Source of the DNA: Desulfofustis sp.
GTDB lineage: Bacteria > Desulfobacterota > Desulfobulbia > Desulfobulbales > Desulfocapsaceae
Assembly: GCA_013042475.1 (NCBI GenBank)
Contig: JABDQA010000019.1
Coordinates: 1 to 43,738, forward strand
Direction of reading: 5' to 3'
Length of the DNA: 43,738 nt
The notes below the pieces were generated by a model, which was not told where the DNA came from, made no database searches, and saw only the letters and a program-made list of their open reading frames with translations. Positions 27,019 through 42,854 of this stretch are shown here, piece by piece. Every line of letters begins with the position of its first letter. Positions within the stretch are counted from its first letter, which is position 1. The position numbers and the translations under genes were made by a program.

Positions 27019-27891
27019 GTGCATTACGACTACGGCTTCACTTCACATTACCTGAACCTTTCGCATGGACGAATCCATTATCTGGATGAGGGTCACGGCA
27101 AGACTGTAGTACTGGTGCACGGCAACCCCACCTGGTCTTATTACTACAGAGACCTGGTCAAGGGCCTGTCAAGCCGCTACAGGGTGGTGGCACCAGACCA
27201 TATAGGCTGTGGGCTTTCCGATAAGCCTGATAATTATGACTACATTCTTGAAAACCACATTGGCAACCTGCGGTCGCTGCTCGAGCATCTCGACATACGG
27301 CAGACTTCGATGGTGGTTCATGACTGGGGCGGCCCCATTGGTCTTGGTGCCGTCGCCGATGGGGCGATCGAATTAAATAAGCTTGTAATTCTCAACACTG
27401 CCGCATTCAGGTCGACGAGAATTCCATTGCGGATCAGAATCTGCCGCTGGCCGGTTATCGGCAAACTGCTTGTCCAGGGAGTGAATGGATTTGCCAAAGC
27501 AGCAATATTTATGGCGGTAAACAAGAGGATGAGCAGGGAAACTGCGCGGGGCTATTTGTATCCCTATGATACGTGGAGTCACAGGCGGGCAATCCACGAA
27601 TTTGTAAGAGATATTCCGCTTCATCCTTCTCACCGCTCCTATGGGACGCTGGTGCGTATTGAAAAGAGCCTCAAGAAGATACATGAAAATAAAATACCGG
27701 TAGGTTTTTTTTGGGGAGGAAAAGATTTCTGTTTTGACGATTATTACTTCGAGCAGTGGAAGACATACCTCCCTCAAGCTCATTACCGTTATTTCGAAGA
27801 GTGGGGTCACTATGTGCTGGAAGACGGCAAGGGATCGATAGAGCGGATCATAGAAGATTTTCTGGGTAAAAATCAGGTTATCCATCAATGA
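27019..27891 (+). CDS. oleB: OleB-like alpha/beta hydrolase (beta-lactone decarboxylase family)
   Basis: In the Ole pathway OleB decarboxylates the beta-lactone made by OleC to a long-chain cis-olefin. The 290 residues have the haloalkane-dehalogenase-like fold: oxyanion segment VLVHGNPTWSYYYRDL, then SSRYRVVAPDHIGCGLSDKP, nucleophile Asp in VVHDWGGPIGLG (about residue 103), an acidic residue in FFWGGKDFCF and the catalytic His in EEWGHYVLED. The start is GTG with AAAGG about 10 bases upstream. It overlaps oleC (ATGA). The ole call depends on the oleC-oleD neighbours; alone it could be a dehalogenase-like hydrolase. Confidence 0.85.
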   Translation: MHYDYGFTSHYLNLSHGRIHYLDEGHGKTVVLVHGNPTWSYYYRDLVKGLSSRYRVVAPDHIGCGLSDKPDNYDYILENHIGNLRSLLEHLDIRQTSMVVHDWGGPIGLGAVADGAIELNKLVILNTAAFRSTRIPLRIRICRWPVIGKLLVQGVNGFAKAAIFMAVNKRMSRETARGYLYPYDTWSHRRAIHEFVRDIPLHPSHRSYGTLVRIEKSLKKIHENKIPVGFFWGGKDFCFDDYYFEQWKTYLPQAHYRYFEEWGHYVLEDGKGSIERIIEDFLGKNQVIHQ

Positions 27892-29516
27892 GTGACAATA
27901 TCGCCCATGCGCTGGGCAGAATAAGCCAAAAGCTGGGATCACGCGTGGCTGTGACCGAAGCACACAGCGGTAAATCATGTACCTTCAGTGAGCTTGATAT
28001 GTTTGCCGACAGGTATGGCGCTTATCTCAAAGCTGAAGGAGTGAAGAGTGGCGACCGAGTGATGCTCATGGTCAGGCCGTCAATCGATTTTATTGCCCTG
28101 GCATTCGCACTTTTCCGTCTAGGGGCACCGGTAATCCTGATCGATCCAGGTATGGGCTACAAGAATATGCTGAGGTGTATAGCTGGGGTGAAACCAGATC
28201 ATCTTATTGGCGTACCAGAAGTTGTTGGTCTGAGTCTCTTTTATGCCGCAAAGTTTCGTTCATTGAAAAAAAGATTCTGTTGCGGCAGTTTTATGGGAAT
28301 AGGCAAATTCGATATTCGCAACAAGCGTAATCTGCCCCAACCACCTCTGCAAACCTTCGCTCCCGACGAGACATCGCTGGCGGCAATAATTTTTACTACA
28401 GGCTCCACAGGGCCCCCAAAAGGGGTAAGGTTCGAACACTCAATTTTCAGTGCCCAACTTGAGAAAATCAGAACTTTCTATGGCATTGGGCAAGGCGACG
28501 TAGATCAACCCGGATTCCCTTTGTTTGCGCTGTTCTCAACAGCGCTTGGTGCGCATGCGGTTATACCGGACATGGATCCCACCAAACCGTCCCAGGTTGA
28601 TCCGCAACGGTTCGTTCAATCGATACTGCACTATCAAGTAACTTACTCATTCGGCTCACCGGCAATCTGGCAAGTGGTAAGCAGCTATTGCAGGCAGAAT
28701 AAAATACGCTGTGCAAGTCTCAAAAAAGTACTCATGGCCGGTGCACCGGTAAGCGGTGAGCTTGTAGAACGGGTTTTTGACATTATCGCTGAAGAAGGCG
28801 AGATCCACACACCTTACGGCGCCACCGAGTGCTTGCCGATTGTTTCAATCGAGGGCCGAACTATCGTCGGCGAAACCTGGGCAGAAACAAAAAAGGGAAA
28901 AGGAACCTGTGTGGGAAGTCCACTACCAGGCATATCGTTAAAAATCATTGAATCAACCGATACATCGCTGTCCACCATTGATGAGTGCTCCGTCCTTGAT
29001 CCAGGCAGTTGTGGTGAAATTATCGTCAAAGGAGACGTGGTTACCCGGGCCTATGATGGTAATCACGCGCAGAACCTAGTCAGCAAAGTCGAAGATGGAG
29101 ACGATTTCTGGCACCGGATCGGTGATGTTGGCTACCTGGACACTCAAGACCGTCTCTGGTTTTGCGGTAGAAAAGCTCATCGTGTGTTCAGTCGCAACGG
29201 TATAATGTATACAATTTGCTGCGAAGCATTGATCAATAACCACCCTGATGTGTTTCGCTCTGCCCTGGTGGGCATAGATTCCGATCAAGAGTACCAGAAA
29301 GCCATAATTATCATAGAATTACATAAGCAATCGAAAAGACAAGTAGAGGATATTGTCACCGAGGTTAAAGAAATCTGTGCAGCACACCCTATGCTCGAAA
29401 CTATCGAACACGTGTTGGTGCACGATAGTTTTCCAGTGGATATCAGACATAATGCGAAAATATTTCGTGAGAAATTGAGTGTATGGGCACAACAGCAGGT
29501 GCAAAAGCAATCATGA
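27888..29516 (+). CDS. oleC: OleC-like AMP-dependent ligase (beta-lactone synthetase family)
   Basis: OleC converts a 2-alkyl-3-hydroxyacid to a beta-lactone with ATP. The 542 residues belong to the adenylate-forming superfamily: P-loop-like IIFTTGSTGPPKGVRFEH (about residues 165-182), TPYGATECLPIVSIEG (A5), GDVGYLDTQDRLWFCGRKAHRVF (A7/A8), and a C-terminal subdomain ending with the invariant Lys region DIRHNAKIFREKL (A10; HNAKI replaces the usual TSGKI). The A10 pattern RHNAKIxREKL is what OleC proteins carry in place of the ligase consensus. Start and stop overlap oleB and oleD, giving a tight three-gene operon. Confidence 0.87.
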   Translation: MSDNIAHALGRISQKLGSRVAVTEAHSGKSCTFSELDMFADRYGAYLKAEGVKSGDRVMLMVRPSIDFIALAFALFRLGAPVILIDPGMGYKNMLRCIAGVKPDHLIGVPEVVGLSLFYAAKFRSLKKRFCCGSFMGIGKFDIRNKRNLPQPPLQTFAPDETSLAAIIFTTGSTGPPKGVRFEHSIFSAQLEKIRTFYGIGQGDVDQPGFPLFALFSTALGAHAVIPDMDPTKPSQVDPQRFVQSILHYQVTYSFGSPAIWQVVSSYCRQNKIRCASLKKVLMAGAPVSGELVERVFDIIAEEGEIHTPYGATECLPIVSIEGRTIVGETWAETKKGKGTCVGSPLPGISLKIIESTDTSLSTIDECSVLDPGSCGEIIVKGDVVTRAYDGNHAQNLVSKVEDGDDFWHRIGDVGYLDTQDRLWFCGRKAHRVFSRNGIMYTICCEALINNHPDVFRSALVGIDSDQEYQKAIIIIELHKQSKRQVEDIVTEVKEICAAHPMLETIEHVLVHDSFPVDIRHNAKIFREKLSVWAQQQVQKQS

Positions 29517-30502
29517 ATAAAGTTCTGGTTACCGGAGGCGGTGGATTTCTCGGCACTGCAGTCGTTATGCAGCTGCTGGAGGAAGGATGCATAGTGAAAG
29601 TAGCCGGCAGAAACCGCTATGACCACTTGGATCGTAAGGGAGTTACCTGTCTGGTGGGTGATATCGGAGATAAAATTTTTGCGGAGGAAGCCTGCCGCGA
29701 CATTGATACAGTTTTCCACGTTGCCGCCAAGGCAGGTATCTGGGGCAGCAGCCGTGAATTTTCCAGAGCAAACCTTGAGGGCACCGTCAATATCGTCAAC
29801 GGTTGCAGGAAAAATGACGTTGGCTGCCTGATCTATACCTCCACCCCATCAGTGGTGTTCAATCGTGAAAATATCGAAGGTGGAAACGAAAGTTTACCTT
29901 ACGCCGATAAGTTTCTTTGCCATTATGCCAAGACAAAAGCGGCGGCAGAGAGATACGTGCTTGGGAATGCAGACGATCAGCTCCGCGTCTGCGCATTACG
30001 GCCCCATCTCATCTGGGGTCCCGGTGATCCGCACCTCATACCAAGACTCATCGACAGGGGTAGAAAAGGTACCCTGAAAATTGTCGGAGACGGGCGCAAC
30101 CGCGTTGACATTACCTACGTTGACAATGGTGCCCGCGCCCATGTGCTTGCCGCCCGGAGTTTACACCGAAGTAGCAGTATCTCAGGAAAGGCTTATTTTA
30201 TAGGACAGGAACGGCCGGTGTATTTGTGGGACTGGGTAAACGATCTCTACCGGGAATTGGGTATCGAACAACTTGAAAAGAAAGTCCCAAAGGCGACAGC
30301 TTACATGTTAGGATGGTGCCTTGAATTGGTCCACCGGTTGGCCGGTCTAAAGAAAGAGCCGGCAATGACCAGGTTTATGGCCCTTCAACTCGCCTGTTCA
30401 CACTATTTCAGCCATGATCGGGCAAAAAAGGATTGGGGCTACGAACCGCTGGTCACTATCGAGGAAGGAAAAAAGAGGCTGCTGGAATCGTTGAGGCATT
30501 AG
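29513..30502 (+). CDS. oleD: OleD-like NAD(P)-dependent 2-alkyl-3-oxoacid reductase (extended SDR)
   Basis: OleD reduces the beta-keto acid product of OleA. The start at MNKVLVTGGGGFLG (29513) overlaps the oleC stop by ATGA; the track's 10 extra residues lie in oleC. The 329 residues have the Rossmann glycine motif TGGGGFLG, NAD-site DTVFHVAAKAGIWG, the Ser region YTSTPSVVFN and the catalytic YxxxK in CHYAKTKAAAE. The later LRPHLIWGPGDPHLIPRLIDRGRKG element is typical of the 3-beta-HSD/OleD group. It ends 6 bases before the protease gene. No oleA lies on either side. Confidence 0.87.
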   Translation: MNKVLVTGGGGFLGTAVVMQLLEEGCIVKVAGRNRYDHLDRKGVTCLVGDIGDKIFAEEACRDIDTVFHVAAKAGIWGSSREFSRANLEGTVNIVNGCRKNDVGCLIYTSTPSVVFNRENIEGGNESLPYADKFLCHYAKTKAAAERYVLGNADDQLRVCALRPHLIWGPGDPHLIPRLIDRGRKGTLKIVGDGRNRVDITYVDNGARAHVLAARSLHRSSSISGKAYFIGQERPVYLWDWVNDLYRELGIEQLEKKVPKATAYMLGWCLELVHRLAGLKKEPAMTRFMALQLACSHYFSHDRAKKDWGYEPLVTIEEGKKRLLESLRH

Positions 30503-30508
30503 ATCAGT

Positions 30509-31918
30509 TTGAATTTTAAACGTTTTATATCATCATTGCTGGTTGCCATTATGCTGACCGCTGCACACCTGCAGCCAGCCATGGGGTTCAGTGTTGGAGA
30601 GGAAAGAGAAGTCGGCGAAAAGCTGCTTTATGCAGTGCGCGCAAGCTTTCCTATCCTCGATGACCCGGATCTCCATCACTATATTACCAATATCGGTCAG
30701 GAAGTACTCGATGTGGCCGGCGTGCAATTCTTCAACTATCACTTTTACATCGTCGAAAGTTCGCAGTTCAACGCCTTTGCTGCCCCTTCAGGTCTCATCT
30801 TCTTCTATACCAAGCTCATAGAGTCGATGAACAGCGAGGACGAGCTGGTATCCGTCATGGCCCATGAGGTCGGCCATGTGGTGAGGCGTCACCTGGCTTC
30901 AAGAATGAAAAAGGGCAAAATAATCAATATCGCTTCTCTGGGGGCAGCCCTGGCGGCGATAGCACTCGGGGGAGGTGGTGCCGCTGCCCAGGGACTGCTG
31001 GCCGGATCACTTGCTGCCGGTCAAAGTGCACAGCTGCACTTCAGCCGTCAGGATGAGATCGAAGCGGACCTGCTGGCCTACGAGTGGATGCAGGACATGC
31101 AGCGCGACACGGTGGGGCAGAAAAGAATGCTGCAGACCATGAGAAGGATCACCCGCTATAGAACCGGACAGATCCCCCAATATCTTCTCACCCACCCCGA
31201 TCCGGAGGCCCGTCTCGATTATGTAGAGTCGCTTATCGCAGCAGATAAGGGTTATCGGGTGGAATCAGATGAGATGAGAAATTTCGATTTTCTCAGATTT
31301 AAATACCGGATTTTATCAATGACCCAGAAGTCATCTGTCGCGAGGGGCCATCTGGCCAGTGAACTAAGTGATCCTCGAGCCACTGAGTTCGAGCGAACCA
31401 TGGCGCTCTATGGGTTGTCCCAGATAGATCAAAGGACCAATAATTACGAACAAAGCCTCGCCAGGATTGATGAAGTTATCGCCGTGTTTCCCGATCAATC
31501 TATTCTTCTTGTTGATAAGGCAGCCATCCTGTCCGATCAGGGTGAGTATTTGCAGGCACGCTTACTTCTGGAGCAGGTCAGAAGAAAAGAGCCAAACAAC
31601 AGCTATGTGCTTTACAATTTGGGAAGAGTAACGGCCAGATTGGGTGATTCTGAGCTGGCCGTGGAGCTTTTCAAGGAGGTGGCCTACAACAATCCCGAAT
31701 TCTCGGATGTCTACTTTGAAATCGGTAAAATCCTTTCCGGCCAAGGTAAGAATATTGAGGCGCGATTTTACCTGGGGCAGTTCAACCTCTATGAGGGCAA
31801 GCTGAAGCTCGCGGCGGCAAATTTCAAGCAGGTTGCCGATAAGACAGAAGAGCAAAGCGAACTGGGTAAAAAGAGCAGGGAGATGCTCGCCCTGATCGAG
31901 AGGCTCAATAAAAAGTAG
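30509..31918 (+). CDS. bepA: BepA-like periplasmic M48 metalloprotease with TPR repeats
   Basis: Periplasmic chaperone-protease for outer-membrane (LPS and BAM) assembly. The 469 residues start at TTG with a signal peptide (ISSLLVAIMLTAAHLQPAMG). The M48 domain follows: ESSQFNAFAAPSGLIFFYTKLIE, zinc motif VMAHEVGHVVRRH (about residue 120), a glycine/alanine-rich helix and the third ligand Glu in RQDEIEADLLAYEWM. The C-terminal 200 residues form TPR units (LVDKAAILSDQGEYLQARLLLEQVRRKEPNNSYVLYNLGRVTARLG). The adjacency to oleD (6 bases) suggests co-transcription, though the function is general. Convergent tlyA begins 4 bases after. Confidence 0.9.
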   Translation: MNFKRFISSLLVAIMLTAAHLQPAMGFSVGEEREVGEKLLYAVRASFPILDDPDLHHYITNIGQEVLDVAGVQFFNYHFYIVESSQFNAFAAPSGLIFFYTKLIESMNSEDELVSVMAHEVGHVVRRHLASRMKKGKIINIASLGAALAAIALGGGGAAAQGLLAGSLAAGQSAQLHFSRQDEIEADLLAYEWMQDMQRDTVGQKRMLQTMRRITRYRTGQIPQYLLTHPDPEARLDYVESLIAADKGYRVESDEMRNFDFLRFKYRILSMTQKSSVARGHLASELSDPRATEFERTMALYGLSQIDQRTNNYEQSLARIDEVIAVFPDQSILLVDKAAILSDQGEYLQARLLLEQVRRKEPNNSYVLYNLGRVTARLGDSELAVELFKEVAYNNPEFSDVYFEIGKILSGQGKNIEARFYLGQFNLYEGKLKLAAANFKQVADKTEEQSELGKKSREMLALIERLNKK

Positions 31919-32692: not shown

Positions 32693-33727
32693 TTAATTCA
32701 ATTTCTGCTGGGCCTGCTGAGCCTCCGGAGAATCTTTATAAGTGGCAATCAGTTTCTTGTAGAGGATTCGTGCCGTGTCCTTGTCGTTAAGCTTCTCAAA
32801 GGCCATGGCTTGCTTGAGCATGGCCGCAGGGGCTTTACCGGTGGATGGATGATTAGTGATGATATTCTGGTAATCGAGGATCGCCTGATCGTACTCCTGC
32901 AACGCAAAGAGGCATTCTCCCATCATGTATTTCGCTTCAACCGCATCTTCAGCCGATCCGGAGGCGGAGATATTTTCAAACTGCTGGTAGGCTTCCCGAA
33001 ATTTACCTTGATCAAAGAGGCTCTTGCCTTTCCCAATACTGCTGCCGGTTTCGACAGTGGCTACAGTTGCAGCAGGCTGGCTGGAACTCGGTGTTGTTGC
33101 GGTTCTCACGGGGGCGGCCTGAGGTGTCGGGGCGGAACCCGAAGAGATCAGCTTTTTGCGCTTATCAGCCCTGATTCTGGTGGCGGAGGAACCACTCGAG
33201 GCCTTATTGGCGGCATCTGCCCGCATACGCGCCTGCTCTGCGGCGCGGGCCGCTGCGGCGGCTTTGCGCTTGGCCTCATCGACCCTGGCCTGCTGGATTG
33301 CCTGAAGGTTTTCCTGCTGTAGTTTCAACTGGTCCGAAAATTGATTCAACTGATTATCCTTATCGGCGATTTCCTGCTCCAGTCTCTTGACTTCCTCCAA
33401 TCGTTTTTGTTCTTCCTGCTGAGCATAACGCTTGAAGTTGAGCTCCAATTCCTTGCTTTGTTCCTTGAGACGACGATTGAGATGCCCGGTTTCTTCAAGA
33501 CCGCCACGCAAAGAAAGCAATTCCTGATTGAGCTGATCGATTTGGGAAGTGTTGGATGCCTGACGCTTTCTGAGACTATCAACAGTGGTGGTTTCCAATT
33601 CAGTCAGTTTATTGTCGATACTGCGCAACTGGGCATGGATAAGATTTAAATCGTCCTGCGAGGCGCATTGGACCAAAAAAGGAGCAACCGCGAGGGCACA
33701 CAATAGAGAAAATGGTGGTTTTTTCAT
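32693..33727 (-). CDS. cpoB: Tol-Pal system coordinator CpoB/YbgF, lipoprotein-like signal
   Basis: Periplasmic protein linking Tol constriction to peptidoglycan synthesis. The 344 residues start with MKKPPFSLLCALAVAPFLVQCASQ, whose LVQC is a plausible lipobox, unlike the plain signal of E. coli CpoB. Residues about 25-165 are a long coiled coil (LRSIDNKLTELETTTVDSLRKRQ ... QQARVDEAKRKAAAAARAAEQ), followed by a Ser/Pro/Thr-rich linker. The last 115 residues are three TPR repeats (LFDQGKFREAYQQFENI; EYDQAILDYQNIITNHP; KDTARILYKKLIATYKDSPEA). It is the last gene of the tol operon. The coiled coil is longer than in E. coli. Confidence 0.88.
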   Translation of the reverse strand: MKKPPFSLLCALAVAPFLVQCASQDDLNLIHAQLRSIDNKLTELETTTVDSLRKRQASNTSQIDQLNQELLSLRGGLEETGHLNRRLKEQSKELELNFKRYAQQEEQKRLEEVKRLEQEIADKDNQLNQFSDQLKLQQENLQAIQQARVDEAKRKAAAAARAAEQARMRADAANKASSGSSATRIRADKRKKLISSGSAPTPQAAPVRTATTPSSSQPAATVATVETGSSIGKGKSLFDQGKFREAYQQFENISASGSAEDAVEAKYMMGECLFALQEYDQAILDYQNIITNHPSTGKAPAAMLKQAMAFEKLNDKDTARILYKKLIATYKDSPEAQQAQQKLN

Positions 33728-33749
33728 GTCGTTCTTTTCAAATATAAAG

Positions 33750-35063
33750 TTAATAAGGCTTCACCGCCCAACGGGGATAGGTTTGGCTACCCGGGAGCGA
33801 GAACAGCATTCGTTGATATAGACCGTTTTTCATTATTCCATATACCTTATGATCTCTGCCATCTCTTTTTGCAAAGATGATCTGATTGCCATCGGGTGAC
33901 CATGATGGTGTCTCATGGTGGGTTTGATCACTGGTGATTTGCGTGGAAGACCCGATATTGAAAGGATCTATGGTACAGAGATGATAGATGCCGCCTCTGA
34001 GGCTCGAATAGACTACCAGATTTTCCACTGGAGACCAAGAGGGTTCTGCATTTTCAACCCCTTCGAATGTCAGGCGCTGAGTATTGCCCGAAACCAATTC
34101 CATCATATAGAGCTGTGGCTTGCCGCTGCGATCGGAGACAAACACTATGTGCCGACCGTCCGGAGAAAAAGAAGGTGAGACGTTGATGCCGGTGCGCTTG
34201 GTCAACTGCCGTAAAATTTCGCCGCGGCGATTGATCAGGTAGAGATCTGGATTTCCCTTGAAGCTGAGAGTAACGACCATGGATTGTCCGTCTGGAGACC
34301 ATGCCGGAGCGAGATTCATTCCTTTCCTGCGGGAAATTACTCGGGTGGTCTTGCTTTGCCGCAGATCGGTGATGTACAGATTCTGATTGCCGCTGTGGTA
34401 GGAGGTATAGGCCATATTGACGCCATCAGGCGAAAATCGCGGCGAGACAACTAGATTGCGGTGTCTGGTAATCTGTCTTGTTTTCCGTCCGAGAATATCG
34501 GAGATAAATACCTCTCTCTCGCGTTTGTCAGCAGGTTGAGTTATAAATCCTATCTGGGTGGTGGCAAGTCCGGGGGTGCCGGTCAGTTCGTTGATAACCG
34601 CGTCGGTGAACTTATATAACATGAGATCTTTTTCATCCAGCGGTCCCTTATAGGCCTTACCCATCAGCATTTTATCTTCCGCTGCATCGAAAAGACGTAC
34701 CTCCATGTTGAGCTGGTCCTTGTTGACCGAATATCTGCCGACCACTCCGTAATCGGCACCAAGCCTGGCCCAGTCGCCGTTGGTGCTGGCGGCAACTTGT
34801 TGGTTCGGCAGGACGTCAATGATACCATGAAAGACAAGTGCTTTTGCGAGGGTATCCGCCAGTCCCCGGTCAAGCTTGGCATCGCTGGCTGATGCTGAGT
34901 TTTGAAACCGGGGGATGGCAAATTGTATTTTCCTGGTTTCCGCTGACGTTATATCCAGATATACCCTTTTCGCGGCAGCCTGAGCAGGCGGAAAAAGAGA
35001 AACTGACAGGATGATACTCAAGATAAGAAGCAGTTGTTTCATGGCAGGTTGTCGGGTTGTCAT
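33750..35063 (-). CDS. tolB: Tol-Pal system beta-propeller protein TolB
   Basis: Periplasmic subunit of the Tol envelope machine. Signal peptide MKQLLLILSIILSVSLFPPAQA, an N-terminal alpha/beta domain (KIQFAIPRFQNSASASDAKLDRGLADTLAKAL), then a six-bladed WD-like propeller with repeated SPDGxxI/M elements (RFSPDGVNMAYTS, AWSPDGQSMVVTL, SFSPDGRHIVFVSD, SWSPVENLVVYSS, SWSPDGNQIIFAKRDG). At 437 residues it has family length. TAATG overlap with tolA supports coupling from 35063; a second Met at 35042 gives a more standard signal peptide. Confidence 0.93.
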   Translation of the reverse strand: MTTRQPAMKQLLLILSIILSVSLFPPAQAAAKRVYLDITSAETRKIQFAIPRFQNSASASDAKLDRGLADTLAKALVFHGIIDVLPNQQVAASTNGDWARLGADYGVVGRYSVNKDQLNMEVRLFDAAEDKMLMGKAYKGPLDEKDLMLYKFTDAVINELTGTPGLATTQIGFITQPADKREREVFISDILGRKTRQITRHRNLVVSPRFSPDGVNMAYTSYHSGNQNLYITDLRQSKTTRVISRRKGMNLAPAWSPDGQSMVVTLSFKGNPDLYLINRRGEILRQLTKRTGINVSPSFSPDGRHIVFVSDRSGKPQLYMMELVSGNTQRLTFEGVENAEPSWSPVENLVVYSSLRGGIYHLCTIDPFNIGSSTQITSDQTHHETPSWSPDGNQIIFAKRDGRDHKVYGIMKNGLYQRMLFSLPGSQTYPRWAVKPY

Positions 35064-35941
35064 TATTGGATGCCGCCGGGTTTGAATACCAGACCGAATT
35101 CGATGGTATCGTTTTTGATGGCGGGGGGAATAGGCGGCAATGGTTTGGATTCCCTGATAGCTTTCTTCACGAATTGATCATAGGTCGGGTCGCCGGAACG
35201 TCGTTCGAAAAACTCATCAATGATGGTTCCATTCCTGGAGATTTTGATCACATAGATGGCCTGGATCGAATCATCGAACCTCTTGAATTCGGGTAACGCC
35301 CAGTGATTTGCAATTTTACCGGTGACGTTGAGGTAATACTGAGTCTCCAGGGCGCTTAGATTACTCGATCCAGATCTTCTCACCGGTGGACCAGGTGCAG
35401 GTGCGCTACGAACCTGATTGCGAATACGGTTCAACTCAGCCTGGGCGAGTTTTCGCTGCCTTTCGGCCTCCTCGGCTGCAATGCGCGCCTGCTCTGCCGC
35501 CAGTTGTTCCGCCTGGACCGCTTCAGCGAGCCGCTGGCGTTTGATGCGTTCCAGTTCCTTCTGTCGATCCCTTTGCGGGTCTTTGACCTTCTTCTTGATT
35601 TTCCGCTTAGAGGGCTTCAAAGACACCGGTTTGACTTCTTCCACCTGGGGAGGGGCGGGTGTTATAGGATCAGTTATAGCCACAGCTTCTTCGGACACCT
35701 CAGGTTCTGGCAGCGGGGCCGGCTCGGGGACCGGGGCAGGCGGAGCGCTCTGCTCGACCGCAGGTTCAGCGAGATTGACGAGGTCGACGGTGTAGATGTC
35801 CTCGTATTTGGGGCTGGGCTTGAAAAGATCTGGCACCACCACCACACTGAAAGCAATCAAAAGGTGAAAACCAACGGCCAGATTGAGCGGCAGTACCCAG
35901 CTGTTGTAGCCCCCGAACGTTATACGGTACTGTTCTGACAC
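35063..35941 (-). CDS. tolA: TolA/TonB-type energy transducer of the Tol system
   Basis: Spans the periplasm from TolQR to TolB/Pal. The 292 residues have one membrane helix (VLPLNLAVGFHLLIAFSVVVV, about 16-36), a Pro/Glu-rich stretch, a basic coiled coil (KKKVKDPQRDRQKELERIKRQRLAEAVQAEQLAAEQARIAAEEAERQRKLAQAEL) and a TonB_C-like C-terminal domain (YYLNVTGKIANHWALPE ... IKISRNGTIIDEFFERRSGDPTYDQFVKKAIRESKPLPPIPP). Shorter than E. coli TolA (421) because the helical stalk is short. Operon position between tolR and tolB decides TolA over TonB. Confidence 0.88.
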   Translation of the reverse strand: MSEQYRITFGGYNSWVLPLNLAVGFHLLIAFSVVVVPDLFKPSPKYEDIYTVDLVNLAEPAVEQSAPPAPVPEPAPLPEPEVSEEAVAITDPITPAPPQVEEVKPVSLKPSKRKIKKKVKDPQRDRQKELERIKRQRLAEAVQAEQLAAEQARIAAEEAERQRKLAQAELNRIRNQVRSAPAPGPPVRRSGSSNLSALETQYYLNVTGKIANHWALPEFKRFDDSIQAIYVIKISRNGTIIDEFFERRSGDPTYDQFVKKAIRESKPLPPIPPAIKNDTIEFGLVFKPGGIQ

Positions 35942-35942
35942 C

Positions 35943-36356
35943 TTATTCTTCTTCAGGCTGGGTGATCATGCCCAGCTTATCGAATCCGGCCTTCTTTATA
36001 TCGGCCATGATCTTGACCACTATCCCGTAGGTGACCGCCTTGTCAGCCTTGAGATAGATTGGCTTTTCTTTTATGCCCTGCTCATAATTTGAAAGTTGAT
36101 TAAAGAGATCCATTCTGGTTACTTCGAATTGATCGAGACTGATTTTTCCTTCCTTGTCAATGGTGACCACGATGGGATTCTCTTCCTGCCTGAGCGATTT
36201 AGTGGTTGTTTCCGGCAGATCGACGTCGAGCCCCTGGGTCATCATCGGGGCGGTTACCATGAAAATTATAAGCAGCACCAGCATGACATCAACGAGTGGC
36301 GTAACGTTGATGTCTGAAACGAGTTGCTTTCTGCCGTTGCCGTTTACCGGTCCCAT
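35943..36356 (-). CDS. tolR: TolR/ExbD-family proton-channel subunit
   Basis: Inner-membrane stator subunit using proton motive force. The 137 residues have one N-terminal helix with the essential Asp (NVTPLVDVMLVLLIIFMVTAPMMTQGLDVDLPE), then the periplasmic domain (VVTIDKEGKISLDQ ... IYLKADKAVTYGIVVKIMADIKKAGFDKLGMITQPE). The operon shows it to be TolR rather than ExbD. It ends 1 base before tolA. Confidence 0.92.
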   Translation of the reverse strand: MGPVNGNGRKQLVSDINVTPLVDVMLVLLIIFMVTAPMMTQGLDVDLPETTTKSLRQEENPIVVTIDKEGKISLDQFEVTRMDLFNQLSNYEQGIKEKPIYLKADKAVTYGIVVKIMADIKKAGFDKLGMITQPEEE

Positions 36357-36362
36357 ATGCGA

Positions 36363-37061
36363 CTAGACCCTTGAGAGCAGATCCCTTTCTACCAGGTTCA
36401 AAAAATCGGTGGAAAAGCTTTGAGTGCTGTATTGAATCCCAGTCAGTTTGTTTGAAAAATAGTTATAGAAAATTACCGCTGGAATGGCAGCAGCGAGTCC
36501 TGCAGCTGTCGCCACGAGTGCTTCCGAGATGCCGGGAGCAACGACAGCCAGAGAGGCCGAACCGCGTTGACCAATATCATGAAACGAGACCATGATTCCC
36601 CACACCGTTCCAAACAGCCCTATGAACGGAGTGGCACTGCCGGTGGTGGCCAAAAACGGCAGCAGACTGCCGAACTTGTTCACCGCCTCGTCTTCTGCTT
36701 TGCGCAACGCCCGTTTGAGGTTGTCCATGGTTGCGAGTTGCATCTCCAGGGTCTCCGGGCCGTCTTCTTCACCCCTGGCTCTGATTTTGTTTATTTTCTT
36801 TAATTCCGTGAATCCGGCATTAAAGACTGATGCCTCGGGGCTGTAAACAAACTCCTCGGCCGCATCGCTGGCTTCATTGAGATTGCCCGAGGTCCAGAAA
36901 GTATCGAGAAAATCTTCAGAGTCGAGACGCACTTTGCGAAAGAGTCTGAATTTCATGAAAATTATCGACCAGGAAACAACGGAGAAAAACAGCAGCAGCA
37001 GCATGACCATCTGACCGACAGGTCCGGCATGCAGAATCATTTGCGTAATGGAGAGTTGCAC
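36363..37061 (-). CDS. tolQ: TolQ/ExbB-family proton-channel subunit
   Basis: The 232-residue membrane protein forms the pentameric ring around TolR. Three helices: residues about 10-36 (GPVGQMVMLLLLFFSVVSWSIIFMKF), about 140-170 and about 180-205, with the family core LPFLATTGSATPFIGLFGTVWGIMVSFHDIG and GISEALVATAAGLAAAIPAVIFYNYFSNK. It is the first gene of the tol operon, 6 bases before tolR. The 167-base gap upstream to fabZ holds no gene; a convincing promoter was not assigned there. Confidence 0.93.
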   Translation of the reverse strand: MQLSITQMILHAGPVGQMVMLLLLFFSVVSWSIIFMKFRLFRKVRLDSEDFLDTFWTSGNLNEASDAAEEFVYSPEASVFNAGFTELKKINKIRARGEEDGPETLEMQLATMDNLKRALRKAEDEAVNKFGSLLPFLATTGSATPFIGLFGTVWGIMVSFHDIGQRGSASLAVVAPGISEALVATAAGLAAAIPAVIFYNYFSNKLTGIQYSTQSFSTDFLNLVERDLLSRV

Positions 37062-37228: not shown

Positions 37229-37654
37229 TCAAGGGTCGATGAGGGCACAATAAAACTCGGTTTTCACCGCGAGTTGATCGCCGACTTTAGCTTTTCCCCG
37301 GAGGACGCTGACAGAGGACACGGTGTCGATCAGCCCCACTTCGATATCTACCGTTTCTCCTGGAAGCACACGTCGTTTGAATCTGGTATCGGAAATTCGC
37401 GTGAGCACCGGTATCTTTGCATCATCATCTGAAAAAGAACTGGCCAGAAGGAGGGCGCCACTCTGAAATATTGCTTCACAAAGAAGCACACCCGGTAGTA
37501 AAGGATTGCCAGGATAATGACCCTGGAAGACATCAAGGTCGTCCTCGAAAGTTTTTCGTGTCCTGATGCTCGTGTCAGTCTGACTGATGATGTGGTCGAC
37601 CCAGAGAAACGGCGGTCGATGGGGGATAAGGGAGAGAATCCGTGTATCTGTCAC
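37229..37654 (-). CDS. FabZ-like 3-hydroxyacyl-ACP dehydratase of the KS/CrtI-like cluster
   Basis: Hot-dog fold dehydratase of 141 residues. The active-site region DVFQGHYPGNPLLPGVLLCEAIFQSGALLLA carries the catalytic His and the Glu of the FabZ helix. The N-terminal ILSLIPHRPPFLWVDHI is the usual FabZ entry. It is the last gene of a six-gene cluster, directly after fabG (adjacent stop/start, no gap), so it dehydrates the hydroxyacyl-ACP made by the cluster's ketosynthase and reductase. It is probably not the housekeeping fabZ, which is normally with lpxD/lpxA. No terminator was seen after it. Confidence 0.88.
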   Translation of the reverse strand: MTDTRILSLIPHRPPFLWVDHIISQTDTSIRTRKTFEDDLDVFQGHYPGNPLLPGVLLCEAIFQSGALLLASSFSDDDAKIPVLTRISDTRFKRRVLPGETVDIEVGLIDTVSSVSVLRGKAKVGDQLAVKTEFYCALIDP

Positions 37655-38389
37655 TTAGAGGCCTCCATTGACATCGAGTACTGAACCGGTGATATAGGAA
37701 GCTTTTTCAGATGCAAGAAACTGGACTGCTGCAACCACTTCACCAACATCACCGAATCGGCGCATCGGCACCATCTTTTTGTAGGCACTTAGCTGTTCGT
37801 CTGCAAGGTCCTCGAGAAGATCCGTCTTGATGAAACCAGGGGACACACAGTTCACCGTAATCTTCTTACGAGCTACTTCCTTGGCGAGAGTCCTGGTGAA
37901 ACCGATCTGACCAGCCTTCGAGGCAGCGTAATTTGCCTGGCCCTGGATGCCCATATGGGATGAAGGTGAGGTGATGTTGACAATACGACCGAACTTTTGC
38001 TTGAGCATCAGCGGAATCGCATATTTACTCATGTGAAAAGTGCCAGACAGGTTTATGTCGATCACCTGCTGCCATTGCTCGCTGTTCATTAGTGCGACGA
38101 TTGCATCTTTTCTCACTCCGGCATTGTTAACCAGAATGTCAAGGGTGTCGAAACGGGATTCGAGCTGTTCATAGAAGCGCGCAACCTGCTCGTGATCGGC
38201 GACGTCGCAGCGCTCTAGTTGCAGCTGATCTTCTGACCACTTATTTTGAAACCTTTTTGCCTCTTCCTGATTGCTGCCGTAAACACCCACCACCTTACAA
38301 TTTTGCTGTAGAAACGATTCAGCTATTGCTCTGCCGATACCCCTGGTCGCACCGGTAACAACCGCAGTTTTTCCTGTAAATTCTGTCAT
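37655..38389 (-). CDS. FabG-like 3-oxoacyl-ACP reductase
   Basis: SDR of 244 residues, NADPH-dependent. Cofactor motif VVTGATRGIGRAIAE, NNAG at about residue 87 (LVNNAGVRKDA), catalytic Ser in VNITSPSSHMG, YAASKAG for Tyr/Lys, and the C-terminal PGFIKTDLL and YITGSVLDVNGGL. The length and C-terminus match FabG. Its place between the CrtI-like oxidoreductase and fabZ marks it as the cluster's ketoreductase. The catalytic Ser loop SPSSHMGIQGQ is typical of FabG rather than other SDRs. Confidence 0.9.
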   Translation of the reverse strand: MTEFTGKTAVVTGATRGIGRAIAESFLQQNCKVVGVYGSNQEEAKRFQNKWSEDQLQLERCDVADHEQVARFYEQLESRFDTLDILVNNAGVRKDAIVALMNSEQWQQVIDINLSGTFHMSKYAIPLMLKQKFGRIVNITSPSSHMGIQGQANYAASKAGQIGFTRTLAKEVARKKITVNCVSPGFIKTDLLEDLADEQLSAYKKMVPMRRFGDVGEVVAAVQFLASEKASYITGSVLDVNGGL

Positions 38390-38403
38390 GGATACCCGCT
38401 TGA

Positions 38404-39810
38404 TTAAAGGGATCTTAAATAACCGTCGACATCGTTGGCTACTATGACTCCGTAGTTAATGGCGCCGAGCCAGCCGGACATGATAATGCCAACAGAACCG
38501 ACATGAAACAGCCCATTCACTTCTTTGAAGATGGTGCGCGACACGTCAAGACCTTCGAATTTAGTGCCGAAAGAGGTGCCCTTGGTATGCAGGGTATAGC
38601 GACTGAACGTCAATGGTGTTGCGGCCTCCAACCAATCGATCTTGGTCTTCACTGCAGGGAGATAACGTTCGAGGTCGACGATGGTCCTGTCGATCATGTG
38701 CTGTTTGGTTGACCTGTAATCTTGTTCTTCAAGAGCGGCCCAGTCATCGTAATTACTGTTCATGGAGGCGACGATGGTGTAGCGTTCGAGTCCTGGCCTG
38801 GTTTTAGGATAATAGACCGAAAAAGTTTTAGACCTGGTGTTGATGTCTAGCAATTCAGCTGAATCAAATTCAGGCGAAAGAGAAGTGAAAAGCAGATCAC
38901 CAATGTGATCGATATGCTCTCCTTCTTGTATGCCTATGTAGACCTGGCAACTCGAATTGTTGACCCGTATTTTTGAAGCCTTTGCTAAAAACTCCTCAGA
39001 ATATTGGCCGGGATCTGACAATTGAAAAATGGTGTTGGTGATACCGCTGTTGGATACCACAGCCCCAGCTTTCTTGAACGCACCGTTGACTTCGACCCCA
39101 ATTGTTTTTTTGTTCTTGGTAACAATCCTGTCAACCCGAGCCCGAGTGCAGATCGTTACGCCGTTTTTTTCCAGTTCGGCGGCCATCAGTTTGATCAACT
39201 GGTCGGTTCCCCCCTCAAATGTGAAGACACCGCGATTCATGAAATTGGAAAAAACTATTCCATAGGTGATGGCCGGATCATCGAGCGTCGAACCGTTGGC
39301 ATAAGTAATCGGTTCCATGAGCAGGCGGTGGACGTCGGTTCGACCTGGAAAAAACTCCTCGAACAATTCCCTGGTACTCATTGACTGGTCGTCATAGAAG
39401 TTCATTTTATCGATCCGGGAAAAAAACCGCTCTATCTGACCCATGCCGACTTCGAATTTTTCGTTGAGAATCGAGATAAAATCTTCTTTGTCAAAAGTGG
39501 TGCGCAATGAGAATTGAGGATTATCGAAAACGATGTCCCTGAGTTGAACGATGGAGTTCATAATTTCACGGTTCCAATACTTCTTGCAGGTTTTTACCAT
39601 ACCGTATGGAAAACCGTGCAAAGACACATCGAATATATGGGTCTTTCGGGTAAACCAGGTAGCCAATCCGCCGAGTCGGTGGTGATGTTCAAGCAGCAGC
39701 ACCGAATGCCCGCTACGGGCCAGCCTGTTGGCGGTGGTGAGCCCGCCAAGGCCAGATCCGACGACGATGACATCATAGGCGTCTTTGGTCTGTTGCAATG
39801 ATACAGCCAT
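38404..39810 (-). CDS. CrtI/phytoene desaturase-like FAD oxidoreductase (second of pair)
   Basis: The 468 residues start with a dinucleotide-binding motif (DVIVVGSGLGGLTTANRLARSGHSVLLLEHHHRLGGLATWF), the carotenoid desaturase/isomerase signature. Middle region GTDQLIKLMAAELEKNGVTICTRARVDRIV is the second FAD-contact part of the family. The C-terminus GLFHVGSVGIIMSGWLGAINYGVIVANDV retains the FAD ribityl loop but lacks the usual PGAG form. In this operon a carotenoid substrate is unlikely, since no phytoene synthase is present; an acyl-ACP or acyl chain substrate for desaturation or double-bond isomerisation is inferred. It is 23 bases after the first paralogue. Confidence 0.85.
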   Translation of the reverse strand: MAVSLQQTKDAYDVIVVGSGLGGLTTANRLARSGHSVLLLEHHHRLGGLATWFTRKTHIFDVSLHGFPYGMVKTCKKYWNREIMNSIVQLRDIVFDNPQFSLRTTFDKEDFISILNEKFEVGMGQIERFFSRIDKMNFYDDQSMSTRELFEEFFPGRTDVHRLLMEPITYANGSTLDDPAITYGIVFSNFMNRGVFTFEGGTDQLIKLMAAELEKNGVTICTRARVDRIVTKNKKTIGVEVNGAFKKAGAVVSNSGITNTIFQLSDPGQYSEEFLAKASKIRVNNSSCQVYIGIQEGEHIDHIGDLLFTSLSPEFDSAELLDINTRSKTFSVYYPKTRPGLERYTIVASMNSNYDDWAALEEQDYRSTKQHMIDRTIVDLERYLPAVKTKIDWLEAATPLTFSRYTLHTKGTSFGTKFEGLDVSRTIFKEVNGLFHVGSVGIIMSGWLGAINYGVIVANDVDGYLRSL

Positions 39811-39832
39811 ATTTGTAGACGAAAGGATTGGA

Positions 39833-41218
39833 CTAAAGTTTGGAGAGAATATGCTTGTTGACCATGGAAACCCCGCTCAGCATTGCGCCAACTATGCCAA
39901 GGAATCCCTGATCGGTGCCAGCCAGCACCAGATTTTCATACCCCATGCTGCCGTCACTTACTTTCTTGGGACTTCCATAGATCGCGCCCCCATGCTTGCC
40001 GGTGAAGCGTTCCACGGTGTGCGGAGTAAAACAATCGGAGAAAACGATGTGTTCTGAAAAATCGCCGACAATCGGTTCGACCTCTGTACACGCTTTGTGG
40101 CCGTGTATCTGCTTCATCTCCTCATAGATGGGACCTTCTTTGGAGGCCTTGAGCCACTGCTGATAATTAGCCAGATGGGTGGTCCGCACCTCTATGGAGT
40201 CCCTGCCTGTCTGCAGATTCTGAAAATTGAAGGGTAGGCTGATTACACCGCTTTCATAACAGACAGCAATATCGGGATGTTCGAACCGAAAGTCATTTTC
40301 CTTGCTGTAAAAAATGCAGGTCCGGTCGCCCGGAAGAGTCTGCAACGCCTGTCGGTCAACTTGGAAAATTGATTCGATGAACGAGAGGCGTCGATCTTGC
40401 TGAGTGTCCTTACTGCGACCTAGAAGCAACCGGGTTTCGTCCAGGCCGATGGTGCTGACCAAGTGCTTGCAGAGAATTTTCTCACCATTTTCCAGTGTGA
40501 CACCAATAATTTTCTCACCCTGTGAAATAATGTTTCTTACCCCGGTGCCTAATTTAAGAGTACCACCATACTGGTTGAGCTTGTTAACCAGAAGATCAAG
40601 CAGGTTTTTGATGGTCCCGGCAGGTCTGAACAGCCCTTCCTGGTAAACCGAACGAAACATGATAACGAATTGTTTAAAATCGATGTCGTTTTCCCAGCTC
40701 GATCCGTAATAGAGGACGGGACACAGCAGCATGTTCACGAGCAGCTGGTCATTGAGAAAATCGGCAAGAACAGCACGGGTGGAGCGGTAATCCTGTGCAG
40801 AAAATGGGTCGGCTTCATCTATGTAGCGAACCAAATGCTGGAAATTGTCGGACTCGGAGGAAAAATTGGTGTTGATTTCCTGTTGCAGTTCCTCAAAATC
40901 GTTGGAAAACAGTAGGGATGTTTCGGGAAACCTTATTTCACTGCTGATCTGCTGATGGAAACCGATCTCATCTCGATGGATTTTCAGCTGTCTGAGAAGC
41001 TTGTTGAGGGGGGCGTGCTTGGCCGCTTTATCTGCGTAGTTTGTTATGGCATGCAGGCCGGTTTCAAACAACCGGTTGTTGCGATAGTAATATGAGTTAA
41101 GTCCGCCAACCCTGGAATGCCGTTCGAGAAGCAGTACGTTTTCATTGTATCTGGCTAATCTGATAGCAGCGGCCAGCCCAGACAGACCGCCACCGATTAC
41201 GACAAAACTGGCTTGCAC
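39833..41218 (-). CDS. CrtI/phytoene desaturase-like FAD oxidoreductase (first of pair)
   Basis: The 461 residues open with FVVIGGGLSGLAAAIRLARYNENVLLLERHSRVGGLNSYYYRNNRLFETGLHAITNY, the FAD/NAD amine-oxidase-like motif with the GG(L/Y) extension. A central AGTIKNLLDLLVNKLNQYGGTLKLGTGVRNIISQGEKIIGV block corresponds to the desaturase family's second signature. The end LVLAGTDQGFLGIVGAMLSGVSMVNKHIL is a FAD-binding tail. It begins 4 bases after the ACP gene, hence translational coupling. The two paralogues are clearly diverged from each other, so different steps are likely. Substrate unknown. Confidence 0.85.
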   Translation of the reverse strand: MQASFVVIGGGLSGLAAAIRLARYNENVLLLERHSRVGGLNSYYYRNNRLFETGLHAITNYADKAAKHAPLNKLLRQLKIHRDEIGFHQQISSEIRFPETSLLFSNDFEELQQEINTNFSSESDNFQHLVRYIDEADPFSAQDYRSTRAVLADFLNDQLLVNMLLCPVLYYGSSWENDIDFKQFVIMFRSVYQEGLFRPAGTIKNLLDLLVNKLNQYGGTLKLGTGVRNIISQGEKIIGVTLENGEKILCKHLVSTIGLDETRLLLGRSKDTQQDRRLSFIESIFQVDRQALQTLPGDRTCIFYSKENDFRFEHPDIAVCYESGVISLPFNFQNLQTGRDSIEVRTTHLANYQQWLKASKEGPIYEEMKQIHGHKACTEVEPIVGDFSEHIVFSDCFTPHTVERFTGKHGGAIYGSPKKVSDGSMGYENLVLAGTDQGFLGIVGAMLSGVSMVNKHILSKL

Positions 41219-41221
41219 GGA

Positions 41222-41473
41222 TCAGGCTTCTTTCAATAAGGGTTCCAGATAATTTGTACAGCTGGTAAGCGTGGCAAGCTGAGGGTAATCTTCCTCAGGA
41301 ATTTGCAGCTTGTAACGTTTTCTCAATTCCATGACGATGTCCAGGAAGTCCATCGAGTCCAGATCAAGCTGATCGCGCAACGGCTGATCCGGATCGAGGC
41401 TGTCGAAATCTGCTTCGTCGTCAATATCTTCAATGATCTCTAATATAAGATCCTTTATATCGTTACGAGTCAT
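41222..41473 (-). CDS. Acyl carrier protein dedicated to the cluster
   Basis: An 83-residue carrier protein. The phosphopantetheine site is the Ser of DLDSMDFLDIVMEL (the usual DSL is DSM here), within an acidic helix bundle (RNDIKDLILEIIEDIDDEADFDSLDPDQ). A GGAGA ribosome site lies 6 bases upstream of the ATG. The sequence differs from housekeeping AcpP (no DSLDTVEL), supporting a specialised pathway. It lies between the ketosynthase and first oxidoreductase. Confidence 0.9.
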   Translation of the reverse strand: MTRNDIKDLILEIIEDIDDEADFDSLDPDQPLRDQLDLDSMDFLDIVMELRKRYKLQIPEEDYPQLATLTSCTNYLEPLLKEA

Positions 41474-41557
41474 AAAAGTCTCCGAATAACACGGGTACTC
41501 AAGGTTTGTGTTAAAAGTGCGTTATCGCGCGTGCATACGAGTTCTAGCAAATCACGT

Positions 41558-41587
41558 ATTATACCATACCTGATGGATTTATTTAAC
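41558..41587 (-). promoter_or_regulatory. Predicted internal promoter before the ACP gene
   Basis: On the minus strand a perfect TATAAT (41563-41558) with TTAAAT 17 bases upstream, in the 139-base gap between the ketosynthase and ACP genes. This would allow ACP and downstream genes to be expressed without the ketosynthase. Confidence 0.5.
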
Positions 41588-41612
41588 TGTTTTTTTATTT
41601 CGGTCTGGAGGA

Positions 41613-42854
41613 TCAACCAGGATACTTTTTTACTATGACAGTGGAATTGATACCGACCATGCCGAAAGAGTTGTTTAGAATGGCACTAATATTCTCACGC
41701 TGCACCGGATTATCAAGCACAAGGTTATCGAGTTGACAGGCTGGATCTAGTTCATCGACATTGATGGTGGGGTGGATAAGTCCATCACTGAATGATCCGA
41801 GATTGCCAGCCAGTTCAAGTACGCCGGCTGCACCCATGGCATGGCCGATGATACTCTTGGTGTTGTTAATGTAGGTGTGCGAGGCGGTGCTAAAGAGTGA
41901 TCTTATGGCCTTGCATTCTTCAGTATCACCCTGCTGGGTACCGGTCGCATGGGTGGAGATGATATCTATGTCGTGTGGTTCCAGCCCGGCCCGGTCAAGA
42001 GCGAGTTGCATGCATTGAGCCTGGCGTTCGCCAAATGGCAGCACCAGATCCTTGGCATCGGAATTCATACCGTAACCCACAATTTCACCATAGATATGCG
42101 CATCTCTGGCCATGGCCCTGTCCAGGGCTTCGAGAATATACAGACAACCACCCTCGGATACGACAATACCGTTTCTATTGATATCAAAGGGACGGCAGGC
42201 CTTGGTCGGATCCTCAGCTTCTCCCAAAGCACCCTGCGCCTTGAAGCTCGCAAAAATACCGAAAGATCCAGTAGATTCGGAAATCCCCCCGGCAATGGCC
42301 ATGTCGATTTCTCCGAGGCGCAGCATCTGCACTCCCTGGATAAGGGAGGCATTACCGGCGGCGCAGGCTGCCCCTATGGAGTAGTGAGGTCCGGTTATGC
42401 CGAGACTCATGGTTATTTCACCGGCTGGATTATTGAGTACGGTGCGTGGATTGTGGTGATGAGTCCAGTAGGAGACGTCGTAGTCATATCCTTTTATGTT
42501 GTAAATCTCGTTTTCAGTTTCGACGGTGCCGTGTTCAGTGAGACCTACATATACACCCGTCCTGCTCTTCTGGTAGTAATTCTCCTCGAGGCTGGCATCT
42601 AAAAGGGCCTCATGGGCACAGTAGACGCCGATACACCCGGCTCTGGTGCCTTTTTTGTTTTCTTTCCTTTTCCTGTATTTAGTTTCTTCAAAAGTGCAGA
42701 GACCGGCAGGTGCTGAACCGAAGTAACGTAGCTCGATCCGTTGTATCTCGCTTCGACCCTCCAGGAGTTTTTGCCTGTATTCGGTAAGATTCGAAGCGTT
42801 GGGCGAGACAAGCCCGACACCGGTGATTACGATTCGCTGATTGTCTGGAAGCAT
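41613..42854 (-). CDS. FabF-like beta-ketoacyl-ACP synthase of the cluster
   Basis: Decarboxylating thiolase-fold condensing enzyme of 413 residues. The Cys-His-His triad is present: Cys in SIGAACAAGNASLIQG, His in ISTHATGTQQGDTEE, His in TKSIIGHAMGAAGVLELAG. The N-terminal RIVITGVGLVSPNASNLTEYRQKLLEG is the KAS II entry and the end NNSFGMVGINSTVIVKK matches. The nucleophile context GAACAAGNAS differs from the common TACATGxxAI of housekeeping FabF, and the segment 95-140 (VETENEIYNIKGYDYDVSYWTHHHNP) is unusual. It is the first gene of the cluster and probably the chain-length determinant. It is not OleA, which belongs to the FabH-like branch. Confidence 0.88.
   Translation of the reverse strand: MLPDNQRIVITGVGLVSPNASNLTEYRQKLLEGRSEIQRIELRYFGSAPAGLCTFEETKYRKRKENKKGTRAGCIGVYCAHEALLDASLEENYYQKSRTGVYVGLTEHGTVETENEIYNIKGYDYDVSYWTHHHNPRTVLNNPAGEITMSLGITGPHYSIGAACAAGNASLIQGVQMLRLGEIDMAIAGGISESTGSFGIFASFKAQGALGEAEDPTKACRPFDINRNGIVVSEGGCLYILEALDRAMARDAHIYGEIVGYGMNSDAKDLVLPFGERQAQCMQLALDRAGLEPHDIDIISTHATGTQQGDTEECKAIRSLFSTASHTYINNTKSIIGHAMGAAGVLELAGNLGSFSDGLIHPTINVDELDPACQLDNLVLDNPVQRENISAILNNSFGMVGINSTVIVKKYPG

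Follow-up and report, generated by a model that had tools for sequence, protein, structure and literature searches.

The OleABCD pathway is known from Xanthomonas, Shewanella and Geobacter; oleA usually stands next to oleBCD, an adjacency that the pathway does not require, and the presence of OleB distinguishes olefin makers from beta-lactone natural-product clusters. In Geobacter bemidjiensis, which makes C31:9, the pfa and ole genes lie in tandem (PMC4882568, PMC3098273). Closer by kinship is Desulfotalea psychrophila, which belongs to the family of the DNA studied here (Desulfocapsaceae, NCBI family). This bacterium makes C31:8 and C31:9 hydrocarbons and carries a phytoene-dehydrogenase FASII cluster, reportedly without a PUFA-type polyketide synthase (Rattray 2009, PMC2649909). 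In that study, an anaerobic PUFA route encoded by this module was proposed for such hydrocarbons, decarboxylation of C32 acids was cited as the source of C31 hydrocarbons, and ole genes were not mentioned (PMC2649909); judged by when the references of this study and of PMC3098273 appeared, the Ole work is later. In the open-access literature, no paper was found that links ole genes to a module with CrtI-like enzymes. Two questions have been standing since 2009: by which route strict anaerobes that lack a Pfa synthase synthesize C31:9, and which role the phytoene-desaturase FASII cluster has outside anammox bacteria.

The window analyzed in this study is an entire contig (C51) of 43,738 bases from a 3.5 Mb draft genome (237 contigs, 91% complete). 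According to the listed ORFs, oleB, oleC and oleD occupy positions 27019-30502 on the + strand, and the tight overlap of the three genes noted in the preliminary description was confirmed; a 4-base ATGA overlap can be read at either junction. The first gene, oleB (27019..27891, +), has a GTG start and encodes an alpha/beta hydrolase of the haloalkane-dehalogenase fold with the nucleophile motif VVHDWGG and a histidine within EEWGHYVLED. It is followed by oleC (27888..29516, +; ATG at 27888) for an AMP-dependent olefin beta-lactone synthetase with the motif TTGSTGPPKG, and by oleD (29513..30502, +) for an NAD(P)-dependent 2-alkyl-3-oxoalkanoate reductase of the SDR type with YxxxK. For oleD, the ATG at 29513, which overlaps the oleC stop, is a more likely start than 29483. 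OleC matched olefin beta-lactone synthetase models with E 2.9e-142 (OlefBLtnSynXan) and 2e-136 as well as PRK09274 with E 2.2e-180, OleD matched 2-alkyl-3-oxoalkanoate reductase models with E 5.9e-111 and 3.9e-103, and OleB was found by profile search as a haloalkane-dehalogenase-type alpha/beta hydrolase with E 5.4e-41; since all these scores are under the curated cut-offs of models that are lineage-specific (Xanthomonas/Shewanella), the identity of the three proteins rests on homology and gene order. The presence of OleB, presumably a beta-lactone decarboxylase, follows from its homology to haloalkane dehalogenases and its position before oleC; oleB stands between oleA and oleC in 12/12 sister-family loci. 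Taken together with the supplier genes and the mechanism described below, it is likely that oleBCD makes up three of the four genes of an OleABCD pathway that is complete but dispersed, with KS-ACP-CrtI1-CrtI2-FabG-FabZ as its dedicated supplier.

These six genes are located on the - strand at 37229-42854, about 7 kb from oleBCD. They encode a FabF-like ketosynthase (KS; 41613..42854) with Cys-His-His residues, an acyl carrier protein (ACP; 41222..41473) with the phosphopantetheine motif DSMD, the CrtI-like FAD oxidoreductases CrtI1 (39833..41218) and CrtI2 (38404..39810), a FabG-type 3-oxoacyl-ACP reductase (37655..38389) and a FabZ-type 3-hydroxyacyl-ACP dehydratase (37229..37654). Type II fatty-acid genes are thus clustered with phytoene-dehydrogenase-like flavoenzymes, the feature that characterizes the cluster of Rattray 2009. 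CrtI2, a phytoene-desaturase/carotenoid-isomerase-like protein, is 66-79% identical to 19 aligned relatives; the solved relatives found are mostly carotenoid desaturases, and a carotenoid-isomerase model matches too. In this genome, contig C37 encodes the FabI-like reductase belonging to the ancestral cluster (C37:7630-8427). This gene is the sole match of its kind (E <= 1e-20) here and in each of 12 relatives, and may therefore have a part in normal fatty-acid synthesis as well. The KS in the window is a second copy; a housekeeping synthase as function of its cluster was rejected because of the stronger, housekeeping fabF at C56:30526-31746, whose contig also carries a FabH-type gene. Between the two pieces lie an M48-like metallopeptidase/TPR gene (30509..31918, +), which adjoins oleD family-wide and is thought to be outside the pathway, tlyA, and tolQ-tolR-tolA-tolB-ybgF (32693..37061, -), whose position is conserved family-wide (all named from sequence). 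In genome G117 (L240), from a distantly related family of the phylum, the module is also found beside tolQ-tolR-tolA-tolB, there with the tol genes before KS and not after FabZ.

The preliminary description had stated that the window contains no OleA thiolase, which holds for the listed ORFs of contig C51, and that either OleA is encoded elsewhere or another condensing enzyme feeds the pathway. The genome search for oleA suggested there yielded an intact gene as single match (C176:29505-30545), so that the first alternative was borne out and the second became unnecessary. The OleA protein scored 421 bits against PRK09258 (cut-off 285), its best solved relative is 3row (E 1.4e-58), and the catalytic residues (Cys, Glu, His, Asn) are conserved. 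It is one of three ketosynthase III-type proteins found in the genome, next to a FabH-type and a chalcone-synthase-type protein. A substitution of OleA by another enzyme acting with OleBCD would have its candidates in the window KS and in the type III polyketide synthase on contig C174, both of which exist in a genome whose window lacks oleA, but the complete, single-copy OleA with its catalytic residues and the occurrence of OleA in 82/97 relatives make such a substitution very improbable. As an OleA, the C174 enzyme was rejected, since it is of the chalcone/stilbene-synthase type. Its gene precedes a probable isoprenylcysteine-methyltransferase-like gene and an SDR gene (L003:721-3123), an order resembling alkylpyrone/alkylresorcinol loci.

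Adjacency of oleA and oleBCD is absent in the window's genome, where they are located on different contigs and oleA precedes AMMECR1- and YkgJ-like genes (names from sequence). The separation is ancient and extends throughout the family. No genome of f1, the window's family, which is assigned to Desulfocapsaceae through its only named member, Desulfosediminicola flagellatus, had oleA near oleC, many of the genomes compared being drafts, and in the six relatives with a complete main chromosome the distance was about 1.75-3.16 Mb, compared to ~0.9-1.5 kb in 16 genomes from other families of the order. Of ten f1 genomes searched for the FabI-like gene, seven carry it 10-21 kb from oleA, among them each of the three congeners in that set. 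The f4 genomes share the AMMECR1 context of oleA and retain the FabI-like gene before it, while f7 retains oleA with the module and has oleBCD apart. Mapped onto the OleA tree, the AMMECR1 context takes two changes; it may have had a single origin.

The preliminary description had also named the KS/ACP/CrtI cluster as a candidate source of polyunsaturated chains, and comparison of gene order strengthened this idea considerably. In sister families, a single co-directional cluster with the order KS-ACP-CrtI1-CrtI2-FabG-FabZ-FabI-like-oleA-oleB-oleC-oleD was found (12 loci, L097-L108; FabG and/or FabZ undetected in L103-L105, oleD undetected in L098 and L106). The window carries two pieces of this cluster, oleBCD and KS to FabZ, and because both are joined in the sister families, the idea that the module feeds the ole pathway is well supported. 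In G125 from another family, the genes are interleaved (KS-ACP-CrtI1-oleA-oleB-oleC-oleD-CrtI2-FabG-FabZ-FabI-like); in G070, FabI-like-oleABCD are together and the remaining module is 0.45 Mb off. Outside the phylum, oleA is located immediately before KS in Chloroflexota, and oleC-oleD immediately before KS in Planctomycetota. The suggested analysis of co-occurrence across genomes pointed in the same direction: oleA, oleC and CrtI1 were all present in 75/97 relatives and all absent in 10/97, counts that share ancestry, and in f1 the distance between oleC and CrtI1 was 10-22 kb in 25/29 genomes having both on one contig. As the f1 pieces no longer form one operon, co-expression is not implied. 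Directly after the module, the loci of Chloroflexota and Planctomycetota contain a 4′-phosphopantetheinyl transferase-like gene (L194:13298-13981 and L214:12883-13581), which parallels pfaE of the Geobacter pfa-ole cluster.

Further evidence was obtained from the distribution of the module and of Pfa-like megasynthases. Among 297 genomes of the phylum, 31 had oleA, 16 CrtI2 and 21 a Pfa-like megasynthase, with the top few candidates scored per genome, by which divergent copies could be missed. Of the 31 genomes with oleA, 12 had only CrtI2, 18 only the megasynthase and 0 both; in the remaining genome, G173 (85% complete), neither was detected, and its OleA groups with the megasynthase-type OleAs. 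The mutual exclusivity is reflected by Fisher p values of 9e-8 by genome and 6e-4 by family, neither fully corrected for kinship. In twelve loci read, the megasynthase, which matches PfaA models, is located directly before oleA. In the OleA tree, the bipartition follows supplier type with a support of 100/100, and all 31 module-type sequences, including those of Chloroflexota, are on one side of this branch. For the window's genome, a Pfa synthase as supplier was rejected, as neither pfaD nor the megasynthase was found; the latter was also absent from the 97 relatives (0/97), and hits to the same query in 21 further genomes of the phylum show that the search works. Two findings, taken jointly, had been named in advance as speaking against the supplier idea: an oleA elsewhere, which exists, and a lack of phylogenetic linkage between the two loci, which are in fact linked. 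All support for the coupling of module and ole genes is comparative; by this comparison, feeding of the ole pathway by the KS/ACP/CrtI cluster is strongly supported, not proven.

The following mechanism is proposed as a model. The FabF-like ketosynthase of the module, with its own ACP, FabG and FabZ and the FabI-like reductase from C37, would elongate acyl-ACP. CrtI1 and CrtI2, whose action as desaturase or isomerase we infer from sequence relationships, would set or isomerize double bonds without oxygen, resulting in polyunsaturated C16 acyl-ACP (C16:4, some C16:3). OleA, encoded on contig C176, would condense two chains head to head; subsequently OleD would reduce the product, OleC would close a beta-lactone with ATP and OleB would remove CO2, giving C31:9 and C31:8. 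The condensation by OleA and the reactions of OleD, OleC and OleB are established for homologues elsewhere, whereas the elongation, the formation of double bonds and the product are predicted for this organism. The carbon and double-bond balance would fit: joining two C16:4 chains with loss of one carbon and gain of the double bond from OleB yields C31:9 (4+4+1), and C16:4 with C16:3 yields C31:8. We have good confidence in this reading, i.e., that an oxygen-independent type II module with two CrtI-like flavoenzymes provides polyunsaturated C16 acyl-ACP, from which OleABCD forms C31 polyenes by joining two chains. In a broader sense, the seven-gene set (KS, ACP, CrtI1, CrtI2, FabG, FabZ, FabI-like) probably represents an oxygen-independent type II polyunsaturated-fatty-acid synthase of several phyla, a non-homologous counterpart of the Pfa synthase that supplies OleABCD in Desulfobulbales as well as in some members of Chloroflexota and Planctomycetota. 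It would also be implied that OleA is specialized for one or the other supplier.

Compared to OleABCD of Xanthomonas, Shewanella and Geobacter, all four enzymes are present here, from the same families, in the usual B-C-D order and with conserved OleA catalytic positions, but oleA is on another contig beside AMMECR1/YkgJ-like genes and this OleA belongs to a clade separate from the megasynthase-linked OleAs. With the Pfa-OleABCD tandem (pfaDABC-oleABCD-pfaE of Geobacter bemidjiensis; Photobacterium profundum), it shares a dedicated polyene synthase coupled to oleABCD; in contrast, the supplier here consists of separate type II proteins and two CrtI-like flavoenzymes and not of a type I megasynthase. 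By analogy, the clusters of Desulfobulbales seem to represent the coupling known from Geobacter bemidjiensis pfa-ole, with a different supplier. The FASII clusters of Kuenenia and Desulfotalea, which are putative ladderane clusters, resemble the module by their published description in having type II genes with phytoene-dehydrogenase-like flavoenzymes, and the flavoenzyme genes DP2405 and DP2406 of D. psychrophila are numbered consecutively. Unlike in the study of Rattray 2009, gene position, distribution and the OleA phylogeny tie the module to oleABCD here. While the module had been proposed for C31 hydrocarbons before (Rattray 2009), the gene-level comparison strongly suggests its tie to oleABCD, thereby providing a specific, testable answer to both questions standing since 2009 and a candidate enzyme set for oxygen-free polyene formation.

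Two other explanations of the cluster have to be considered. The split ole pathway could use ordinary membrane fatty acids, as in Xanthomonas, while the KS/CrtI cluster is responsible for a different lipid or pigment and the proximity of both is historical. Separation of the two pieces by tol genes within the window's family would be consistent with this, as would the occurrence of the module without oleA in some lineages, i.e., in G060, G073 and G086, which carry CrtI1, and in G099, G107, G144 and G179; the module may accordingly serve other lipids. Such a coincidence is unlikely given that several families of the phylum and two further phyla have module and ole genes contiguous or interleaved, and given the mutual exclusivity with Pfa-like suppliers, the OleA tree tracking supplier type and the formation of C31:8 and C31:9 by D. 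psychrophila (PMC2649909). The extensive synteny of the Kuenenia and Desulfotalea FASII/phytoene-desaturase clusters (Rattray 2009, PMC2649909) might alternatively suggest a ladderane-type cluster for cyclobutane lipids as in anammox bacteria. In D. psychrophila, however, C31:8/C31:9 polyenes were found and ladderanes were not (PMC2649909), and the ORFs read next to the cluster in the window included no radical SAM gene, with the contig ending 0.9 kb past KS, so a ladderane product is hardly to be expected. The preferred reading, a polyene supplier for OleABCD, comes with the warning that such clusters outside anammox bacteria may be hydrocarbon and not ladderane clusters.

As oleA was not found genome-wide in G107, G144 and G179, the module presumably has another product there. 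CrtI/KS modules without nearby ole genes were observed in L235 and L236 (G107, G179) and, in Nitrospinota, in L202, L205 and L212; the module loci of Nitrospinota/Nitrospirota had no ole gene within the flanks read, and the neighbors of the module in L236 gave no matches in the family search. In L238, a radical SAM/SPASM gene (L238:5336-6409) is located near CrtI2 and a FabI-like gene, which recalls the radical SAM genes of anammox clusters.
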